From a virus: a stretch of DNA of 21,199 nucleotides. The first letter of the stretch is position 1; every line of letters starts with the position of its first letter. Positions 7,904 to 10,260 of this stretch are shown piece after piece. The stretch covers positions 1 to 21,199 of IMG/VR virus record IMGVR_UViG_3300030012_000651. One strand, 5' to 3'. Position numbers and translations under genes: made by a program. The notes under the pieces were generated by a model, which worked only from the letters and a program-made list of their open reading frames with translations, made no database searches and had not been told where the DNA came from.

Positions 7904-7923
7904 GGGGCCAGTTACCCAGCCCC
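7904..7923. other. GC-rich hairpin between the 92-aa structural gene and the tail adaptor gene
   Basis: GGGGC at 7904-7908 is complementary to GCCCC at 7919-7923, with a 10-nt loop, in otherwise AT-rich sequence. In the minus-strand transcript it is followed by UUAUACAC, too poor in U for a strong intrinsic terminator. It could be a weak attenuator, an RNA-processing site or a stabilising 3' end for the abundant capsid message. Confidence 0.3.
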
Positions 7924-8221: not shown

Positions 8222-9055
8222 TTACTCAGTACATGAAATTTTAACGATACCCTCGTCATCAATCGCTATAGCTCCAGCTGAGAACATGGAGCTTACTAGG
8301 AAAGATGTCTTTTCAGGTATGTAATTAACTTCGCTCTTTTGCGAAATGCTTTCGGCATAACCCATTGAGCTTTCGTGCCATGCAAAACATGTACGAGTTG
8401 ATGGCTTTGGAACACCACCCTCATCACGATCACCCATAGTGATTATATTAAAGCCCATGAACGATGATACCTCACCGCGAACAAGAGCCTTGACTACAGC
8501 AAAATCACTCGAAGTTACTTCAGTCTCACTGAGCAACGCATCAAGCTGAGAAGAGTGCATCAATATGTGACGCCCTTCAGCTGGTACGTTTTTCTCATTG
8601 AGAGCCTTAGCAGCCGCACGAAGTTTTGCAATATTCATATTGGTAGTAGAACCACCAATACCAGTTGCAACTGTTGACGGTGATGAAGCCGCATCAAGAG
8701 CATCAATGCAAAGTTGATCCATACGTCTAGCTATTGCTTTGGAAACAACTTGGACCAACTCTCTACGCTCATCAAAATTAACATGAGACTGATGAAAGAT
8801 GTCAGAATACTCTGCAGCGATAAAATCAGACATGGTCGCCTGAACATTGCTATAGGTTACGTTTAACGGTGTCACATCGGTCTGGGGTACCCTGATCGTT
8901 GCAACGCCTTTGCCGATTTTTGGAAACTTAACTGTGTTTCCTTGAACGCCTGTTCGCGTTCTCATAGTGCCGCGAAGCAGTGCCTCGCCTTGATATGCCT
9001 GTTTCACCTCTTGATCGAATAGTGTTACAAAGGCATTGGTTATACTCTGCGCCAT
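8222..9055 (-). CDS. Major capsid protein
   Basis: 277 aa. The sequence matches my memory of the compact phage capsid family common in environmental podoviruses: N-terminal SITNAFVTLF (residues 4-13), MRTRTGVQG (31-39), KIGKG (46-50), VPQTDVTPLNVTYS (56-69), then NFDERRELVQVV (93-104) and an Asp/Leu-rich helix RRMDQLCIDAL (110-120); a C-terminal NYIPEKTSF-type strand precedes the end. It is shorter than T7 gp10A (about 345 aa). The ATG at 9055 has a strong AAGGAGG site 8 nt upstream, fitting the most abundant virion protein. It is preceded by a 175-nt leader that appears structured, and by the scaffold gene, the usual scaffold-capsid order. Confidence 0.88.
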   Translation of the reverse strand: MAQSITNAFVTLFDQEVKQAYQGEALLRGTMRTRTGVQGNTVKFPKIGKGVATIRVPQTDVTPLNVTYSNVQATMSDFIAAEYSDIFHQSHVNFDERRELVQVVSKAIARRMDQLCIDALDAASSPSTVATGIGGSTTNMNIAKLRAAAKALNEKNVPAEGRHILMHSSQLDALLSETEVTSSDFAVVKALVRGEVSSFMGFNIITMGDRDEGGVPKPSTRTCFAWHESSMGYAESISQKSEVNYIPEKTSFLVSSMFSAGAIAIDDEGIVKISCTE

Positions 9056-9230
9056 AGCAGAAGCCTCCTTTTAAGGTTTCTAATATAAAACGCTTACCGT
9101 TAGCCGATGTAATCGGGCGGTCGCTTGCGTGGAAGTGGTCACGCCAACCAGTGGATTCACCACATAAACGGGCCGCTCGGTTATCCGTTACACCACATAT
9201 ACACGCAAACAACCTACATTGCAACAATAT
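9056..9230 (-). promoter_or_regulatory. Structured leader of the major capsid gene
   Basis: A 175-nt non-coding gap between the scaffold stop and the capsid start, locally GC-rich compared with the flanks. In the minus-strand RNA several perfect stems can form: CCGAU/AUCGG with a 3-nt loop (plus 9104-9116), bracketed by ACCG/CGGU (9096-9099 with 9118-9121); GUGG/CCAC with a 5-nt loop (9151-9163); AACGG/CCGUU (9167-9171 with 9185-9189); and a local GCGUG/CACGC hairpin (9127-9144). A second GCGUG at 9202-9206, followed by GUGG at 9193-9196, can instead pair with the same CACGC and CCAC (9127-9138), closing a multibranch fold. A 9-nt direct repeat, CACCACATA, lies at 9158-9166 and 9191-9199. No sigma-70-type promoter is convincing. 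It may regulate or stabilise capsid mRNA, or be a processed small RNA. No tRNA shape fits. Confidence 0.45.
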
Positions 9231-10010
9231 CTAGTTGTTAGCTGCCATCCATTTCTTTTCGATGTTGGTTCGCCATACAGCATCAGTCTGCCATCGAGGA
9301 TCTGAAATAGCTTGCTGAAGATCTGTTACTGTCATTTCTGGTTCTGCAACGACAGGTTTGATCGGGATATTTTCATTGGTGTACCCCTGGATAAGTTTGG
9401 TCAAGGCATTGATACTATCAGCATTGTTTATGCTGTAGCTAAGAGCTGTTTTTTCTGCTTCGTTTAGATCAGCTCCCTTGATGTTACGCTCGAGAAAACT
9501 GATTTTCTCCTGGGCATTAGCGCCAAGCTTTTGCATTTCAGCTCTACGATCATACTCAATATCTTCGGCCTGTTCGCCATTCATTTCCAAAATCTGACCA
9601 GCCAAGTCCTCAAACGCTTTCTGTGAAACTCCATATTGTTTAGCCCAGTCTTTATATACCTCAACAGCCGGATCTTCCAAATCGAGGCCACGATCAACCA
9701 AATCCGAAATATCGTAGTCGCCTTCCGGTGCTTTATGCTTGCCGGATCTAAATGCTTTTTCCAATTCCGCATAACTCTTTGCAAGCTTTTCAACATCTGG
9801 CCCATCTTCATCCCAAAACTTCTCTGGATAATAATCAGGCCGATCAAAAGGTTCGTCATCATCTTCTGACATTTCCTGTTGTTCTGGCTGTTCATGCACA
9901 GGCATAGGAGCCTCTGCTTGTGGCTCTTCTTCTTTTGCGTCTACGTTTATTAATGGCGCTTCTGTTTCCTGTGTTTCAACGCTTTCTGTGTTTTCTGTTT
10001 CTTCAGACAT
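9231..10010 (-). CDS. Capsid scaffolding protein
   Basis: 259 aa from the preferred start. Scaffold proteins direct procapsid assembly and leave before or during packaging. The first 55 residues are extremely acidic (Glu/Asp/Gln/Pro), followed by a PDYYPEKFW segment, an APEGDYDI motif near residue 94 and helical coiled-coil-prone sequence, ending in a WRTNIEKKWMAANN tail, the type of C-terminus that contacts capsid protein. Position between portal and capsid genes matches T7 gp9. An upstream in-frame ATG at 10025 exists, but AGGAG lies 5 nt before the ATG at 10010, so I use that. The gene overlaps the 85-aa gene by 8 nt. It ends in TAG at 9231-9233; the same frame stays open after that stop to 8928. 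Confidence 0.82.
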   Translation of the reverse strand: MSEETENTESVETQETEAPLINVDAKEEEPQAEAPMPVHEQPEQQEMSEDDDEPFDRPDYYPEKFWDEDGPDVEKLAKSYAELEKAFRSGKHKAPEGDYDISDLVDRGLDLEDPAVEVYKDWAKQYGVSQKAFEDLAGQILEMNGEQAEDIEYDRRAEMQKLGANAQEKISFLERNIKGADLNEAEKTALSYSINNADSINALTKLIQGYTNENIPIKPVVAEPEMTVTDLQQAISDPRWQTDAVWRTNIEKKWMAANN

Positions 10011-10260
10011 TATCGCTCCTATCAACCCTTTTCATGATTAACCGGACAAGATCAGCCGCACCTTCTCGAAAGTAGCCTTGGCTTGGATCTTCTCCAGGAA
10101 ACCAGGATGGTTGTTCTATTGTTATCTGCCTCAAATGACTTAGCACCTTTTGGCCTTCCTGTGACTTAAATAATGTTCCATATAATATATCTAAGTCATC
10201 CGCTTTCTGCGGCTCCGGCTTTGCTTGAGATAATCCCTCCCAACCTTCAGCCGAACTCAT
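10003..10260 (-). CDS. Small Bbp19-like protein between portal and scaffold
   Basis: 85 aa. Residues about 24-82 hold the pattern FKSQEGQKVLSHLRQ, then PSWFPGEDP, then FREGAADLVRLIMKRV, which resembles the Bbp19-like phage domain (named for a Bordetella phage BPP-1 structural protein) that commonly lies beside portal or capsid genes. The function is not established. Its ATG overlaps the portal stop as ATGA (10257-10260) with GGAG 7 nt upstream, and its end overlaps the scaffold start by 8 nt, so it is translated together with head genes. A minor head component or assembly factor is the likely role. Confidence 0.6.
   Translation of the reverse strand: MSSAEGWEGLSQAKPEPQKADDLDILYGTLFKSQEGQKVLSHLRQITIEQPSWFPGEDPSQGYFREGAADLVRLIMKRVDRSDNV

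Follow-up and report, generated by a model that had tools for sequence, protein, structure and literature searches.

A conserved structured RNA between the scaffold and major capsid genes in a clade of short-tailed phages

Structured 5' leaders are a known kind of element, and we here describe one in front of the major capsid protein (MCP) gene of a virus from the IMG/VR collection (IMGVR_UViG_3300030012_000651, of which positions 1 to 21,199, all 21,199 nt analysed here, are called the window). The gap between the scaffold, or capsid assembly protein, gene (9231-10025, minus strand; Pfam Phage_T7_Capsid, 55.9 bits) and the MCP gene (8222-9055, minus strand; Pfam Phage_capsid_2, phrog_3437) spans 175 nt (9056-9230), and holds a probable promoter and a structured RNA of about 100 nt (9189-9091, minus strand). 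That the gap carries a real structured RNA is close to certain, and this RNA is very likely the 5' leader of the capsid message. An initial annotation, made from the letters of the window, had proposed a structured leader directly upstream of the MCP gene; covariation in homologous gaps bears this out, and the observation is real and larger than first described. Given that the RNA has held its shape through long evolution despite changes in its letters, it is very probably important for making virus shells. As leading explanation, which we regard as an even call, the RNA is the conserved structured 5' end of a separate capsid unit in one short-tailed phage clade, and raises capsid output.

The gap proved to be non-coding on the minus strand, as first described: sense frames are open across the RNA in no more than about 20% of family members, which is about the chance level, and they are not conserved among these members. 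A small coding sequence inside the gap is ruled out because reading frames are not kept across relatives, and ARAGORN finds no tRNA or tRNA-like gene there. The impression of a GC-rich segment in an AT-rich genome holds only mildly, with about 50% G+C in the gap against 40-48% nearby.

The RNA is present once in the window and folds into four helices, P1 to P4, with a probable pseudoknot at P3 (all positions on the minus strand). P1 is a hairpin (9189-9167) in which an outer AACGG (9189-9185) pairs with CCGUU (9171-9167) and an inner CCG (9180-9178) with CGG (9175-9173), the two parts being separated by an internal loop with AUAA (9184-9181) opposite C9172. P2 is a hairpin of GUGG (9163-9160) and CCAC (9154-9151). 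P3, one of the stems named in the initial annotation and found to exist, joins GCGUG (9144-9140) to CACGC (9131-9127), and CCA in its loop (9138-9136) probably pairs with UGG (9150-9148) as an H-type pseudoknot, rather than with an upstream GUGG (9196-9193). In P4, which is preceded by an AAG linker, GC (9124-9123) pairs with GC (9093-9092) and ACCG (9121-9118) with CGGU (9099-9096), followed by C9117 opposite CUAA (9103-9100) and an inner CCGA (9116-9113) paired with UCGG (9107-9104). The consensus of P1 is NNNGG-NUAA-CCG...CGG-C-CCNNN and that of P4 is CCG-C-CC...GG-NUAA-CGG, closed by GC/GC. Hence, one 4x1 internal loop, with NNNA facing a single C, occurs in both P1 and P4, in mirror orientation.

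Relatives were collected via the capsid protein and comprise 80 IMG/VR contigs at 80-99% identity plus MEP301, a phage of the methylotroph clade OM43, at 63%. Of the 54 distinct gaps, that of MEP301 is the odd one; the other 53 align well, with strong conservation of letters inside helices that change. A scan with the MEP301 capsid yields a second clade, the gap sequences of which are very different but follow an identical plan. The window-clade alignment (A1) holds 40 distinct sequences, aligned with MAFFT and not fitted to structure, and the MEP301-clade alignment (A3) holds 36 sequences, aligned independently of the window clade. The letters of the internal loops are NUAA or NCAA in the window clade and CAUA, CUAA, CUCA, CACA and similar in the MEP301 clade, in which the pseudoknot positions read (N)CG/CG(U).

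When these homologous scaffold-capsid gaps were checked for covariation, covarying pairs were found in both clades. In the window clade 93.0% of pair cells are intact, compared with 31-41% when the partners are slid, 18 pairs have changed on both sides, and the covariation score is 0.297 (0.138 shuffled, at most 0.111 slid). The MEP301 clade gives 87.5% intact cells (27-40% slid), again 18 pairs changed on both sides and a score of 0.339 (0.146 shuffled). We also applied our own tree-aware test, modelled on R-scape, in which substitutions are re-dealt over the tree and pairs are scored by a G statistic with average-product correction (E < 0.05). It finds 8 of 31 structure pairs significant in the window clade and 11 of 29 in the MEP301 clade, against none of 5,429 and none of 5,327 other column pairs, respectively, and each of P1 to P4 is supported in at least one clade. 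The outer helix of P1 is paired in 96% of cells, and covariation in P1 falls on pairs 8-34 and 10-32 in A1 and, in A3, on pairs of both the inner and the outer helix. All four pairs of P2 have changed on both sides in A1, three of them significantly in the tree-aware test; P3 is 98% paired, with covariation; and the GC/GC closure of P4 is 98.8% paired, with alignment pair 87-109 significant. The pseudoknot is 97.5% paired with few changes within a clade, too little variation for a covariation test there; at its middle pair, one clade has mostly G-C and the other C-G throughout.

Folding energy by itself is no proof of this structure; the proof is comparative. Single-sequence folding of the gap gives z-scores of -1.8 for the minus strand and -2.7 for the plus strand, and the 105-nt core alone barely beats shuffles (z -0.8). 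The minimum-energy fold of the window sequence has -31.6 kcal/mol and the conserved fold, its nested part taken without the pseudoknot, -25.5 kcal/mol, so the conserved fold is invisible from one sequence, and minimum-energy folding was rejected as a guide to structure, given that it yields a fold different from P1-P4. A plus-strand RNA was likewise rejected despite its better z-score: read on the minus strand, G-U pairs outnumber A-C pairs by 36:12 and 17:3 in the two clades, and therefore the RNA is on the minus, or message, strand.

Covariance models built from one clade recover the other. A model of the window clade (R1) recovers gaps of the MEP301 clade with E-values down to 4e-8, and a model of the MEP301 clade only (R2) recovers window positions 9087-9193 on the minus strand (36.9 bits, E 2.9e-8), every unrelated match in the R2 search being at noise level. 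R1 also matches phage contigs binned with metagenome-assembled genomes, each time directly before the capsid gene: L496 (capsid 59% identical, E 2e-9), L494 (70%, E 5e-6), L498 (52%, E 2e-5) and L497 (54%, E 3e-5). To judge from capsid identities down to about 52% among the members found by the models, the RNA is old. In L495 (1655-1730; capsid 66%) we see by eye a reduced copy with P1, P4 and both AUAA/C loops, and no P2, P3 or pseudoknot; the essential core would then be the two loops. On the capsid tree the bearers of the RNA, L495 included, form one group with one change (support 94/89), which fits a single origin. Without use of capsid information, two pattern scans of IMG/VR gave 228 copies; all 215 that could be judged stand before an MCP gene and all 209 that could be judged follow a scaffold gene, a result that covers the core family only because the patterns are strict. 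The RNA is frequent in aquatic viromes and its bearers are water-dwelling bacterial viruses. The models give no convincing match in Vibrio phages (the best, CKB-S2, reaches 14 bits, E 0.06-0.24), HTVC010P, Hodr, Baldr, Skadi-4 or Dunaliella virus SI2. The strand, place, structure and vertical inheritance of the RNA thus follow from comparison between genomes.

The initial annotation knew of no family with this shape, and a search of the window against Rfam 15 agrees, with no match at the gathering threshold and only chance miRNA matches (E 4-6.5) at a relaxed one; nine divergent relatives searched at the relaxed threshold give no match on the RNA. The fold is therefore new to Rfam. No capsid-linked phage RNA motif was found in the literature searched, in which a leader on a tailed-phage capsid gene is without description, two surveys excepted: one from 2017, reportedly of 224 motifs, and one from 2023, said to treat viral structured RNAs, are outside that comparison. 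The manA and wcaG RNAs are structured RNAs of marine metagenomes and phages that were found by comparative sequence analysis (PMC2864571), but they are mostly linked to metabolic genes and show no match to the capsid-leader RNA.

A probable sigma70-type promoter precedes the RNA on the minus strand, with a -35 element TTGCAA (9224-9219), a 17-nt spacer and a -10 element TATATG (9201-9196) that 6 nt separate from the first paired base of P1; the predicted transcript start is near 9189, which is that first base. The window's promoter agrees with the consensus at 8 of 12 positions, hardly more than shuffled sequences do, and a fixed consensus scan reports no promoter at 9224-9196. In 32 of the 40 window-clade and 30 of the 36 MEP301-clade members the best promoter keeps the window's spacing to within about 3 nt, ending 5 to 9 nt ahead of the first base that pairs in P1. 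A terminator is found between scaffold gene and RNA in 41 of 64 MEP301-clade members, and none between RNA and MCP gene in 154 relatives. Downstream, both clades show a cluster of terminator-like sites 1,050-1,350 nt past the MCP start and hardly any in the rest of 3 kb; the clustered sites follow a small gene 3' of the MCP gene, and some fall within the first part of the tail tube gene. The window has a GC-rich terminator-like hairpin after this small gene (7904-7923, minus strand; -17.3 kcal/mol with its surroundings) and a second one at 7828-7814 (minus strand), the region 7923-7904 being where the capsid transcription unit probably ends. Because of the predicted promoter, the single genomic context and the predicted terminators upstream and downstream, we infer that the capsid genes form a separate, strongly expressed unit.

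This arrangement resembles that of T7, in which the scaffold gene is followed by the phi10 promoter, a structured leader, a strong Shine-Dalgarno sequence, capsid gene 10 and the terminator Tphi. The same order of scaffold, promoter, leader, capsid and terminator is present in the window, with promoter and terminators as predictions, and the window's scaffold matches the T7 capsid assembly family, related to T7 gp9. On our best reading, by analogy, this would be a dedicated capsid unit laid out like T7 phi10-gene 10-Tphi. However, T7 has a short leader, in which a single hairpin stands at the 5' end, and a promoter for the phage RNA polymerase, whereas the leader described here has four helices, a probable pseudoknot, two mirrored loops and a host-type (sigma70-like) predicted promoter; the short-tailed phages in question appear to use the host polymerase.

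From the promoter-like sequence at its fixed distance, transcription would begin with the first base of P1, and the leader, as we propose, would act in cis to secure a high output of capsid protein. The likeliest route would be that a compact domain at +1 offers no free 5' end to decay of the RNase E/RppH type, and the same compact fold could leave the Shine-Dalgarno sequence (AAGGAGG, 9064-9070, minus strand) accessible to the ribosome. We put such a protective, output-raising role just short of an even call; repression of expression, in place of a rise, would also fit the comparisons. Protection alone fails to explain the conservation, given that simple 5' stabilizers need no conserved loop letters. 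The conserved unpaired bases, which are the two mirrored NNNA/C loops and the AAG linker, suggest that a partner, either a protein or the transcription machinery, may also recognize the RNA. The RNA is small enough for reporter studies and could give a handle on how capsid output could come to far exceed that of the products of neighbouring genes.

Recognition could also be the main function. In an unlikely alternative, the RNA is a regulatory receptor in which a protein, such as unassembled capsid or scaffold, or a small molecule binds the mirrored loops and alters translation or the life of the message. The occurrence of the same 4x1 loop twice, kept across great divergence, would fit this, as would the persistence of the loops by eye in the reduced L495 copy and the linkage of the RNA to the capsid gene alone. 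However, no expression platform of the riboswitch type was found, that is, no terminator or Shine-Dalgarno sequestration exclusive with an aptamer: the relatives show neither a terminator separating RNA and MCP gene nor a conserved alternative fold, and the hairpin around the Shine-Dalgarno sequence is weak, at a mean z of -1.0 across 40 relatives, and is not common to the two clades, so that a conserved Shine-Dalgarno hairpin was rejected. In a broader form, which we offer tentatively, the RNA may represent a new class of phage RNA receptor, with mirrored loops on a probably pseudoknotted core that sense the state of capsid assembly or grip RNA polymerase; the number of shell proteins would then be set by an RNA and not by a protein regulator.

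A grip on polymerase is known from HK022, where the putL RNA closely follows its promoter and forms two stem-loops in which bulges matter for function (PMC9378689); put RNAs are about 70 nt long, belong to early operons and have proven polymerase binding (PMC9378689). We consider it improbable that the capsid leader is a nascent-RNA antiterminator of this kind, binding RNA polymerase so that it reads through the post-capsid terminator into the tail genes. Both are phage RNAs just after a promoter with loops or bulges in two stems (PMC9378689); here the RNA sits at the predicted +1, two of its stems carry asymmetric internal loops, and about 1.1-1.25 kb further downstream both clades have terminator-like hairpins. 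Size and fold differ, however, with about 100 nt, four helices and a probable pseudoknot in place of about 70 nt and two stem-loops, a shape that only the reduced L495 copy approaches; polymerase contact is conjectural, and the downstream hairpins may merely end the capsid unit.

It is very improbable that the RNA is a separate small RNA or a self-cleaving ribozyme instead of an mRNA leader. A compact, probably pseudoknotted fold with invariant loop letters would suit either, but the RNA has a single genomic context and the terminator that would separate it from the MCP gene is lacking in the relatives; Rfam shows no ribozyme match, the relaxed search of the divergent members included, and there is no upstream piece to cut off because the fold begins at the predicted +1.

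Least credible of all is the switch between two mutually exclusive folds that the initial annotation had read from the pairing, which is unsupported because its partners lie outside the predicted transcript and the pairing is poorly kept in relatives. The alternative pairing can be drawn (9206-9202 with 9131-9127 and 9196-9193 with 9138-9135), it is part of the minimum-energy fold of all 175 nt, and read-through transcripts from upstream would include the partners, so it could form in some phages. However, 9206-9202 lies in the promoter spacer and 9196-9193 consists of the last -10 base and the next three; these bases precede the predicted start, so transcripts from the predicted promoter would lack them. 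Across 53 distinct relatives the two parts of the alternative helix are paired in 74.0% and 59.4% of cells, compared with 97.7% for the local helix, and in more distant relatives in 58.8% and 50.0%, compared with 96.2%; the pairing that remains is explained in part by conserved promoter letters.

Other elements were seen around the same position. In part of the window clade a start-codon hairpin, UCUGC-UAUGGC-GCAGA, lies at about 9062-9045 (minus strand) and shows matching changes (CUGU/ACAG in L062 and L079); it is absent in other members. The scaffold-MCP gap of Pelagibacter phage Baldr (L183, 1280-1500) is 200 nt long with possible repeats and hairpins, and the models show no relation to the capsid-leader RNA. 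L466, L471 and L472 give no convincing model match, although inspection by eye of the gap before the MCP gene shows hairpins that share the NNUA(A)/C internal loop; one in L472 reads GGAA-CCUAA-UCCGC..GCGGA-C-CUUCC. The clade of Dunaliella virus SI2 (L414-L459, L178) has a different conserved leader in its scaffold-MCP gap, often after a terminator and promoter and with no R2 match, made up of the blocks CAGACCC, CGGCACCC, AGGCCC and GGCNCUCG; by eye, there seems to be covariation in its closing helix, which is AAGAU/AUCUU (in L461, AAAC/GGUU).
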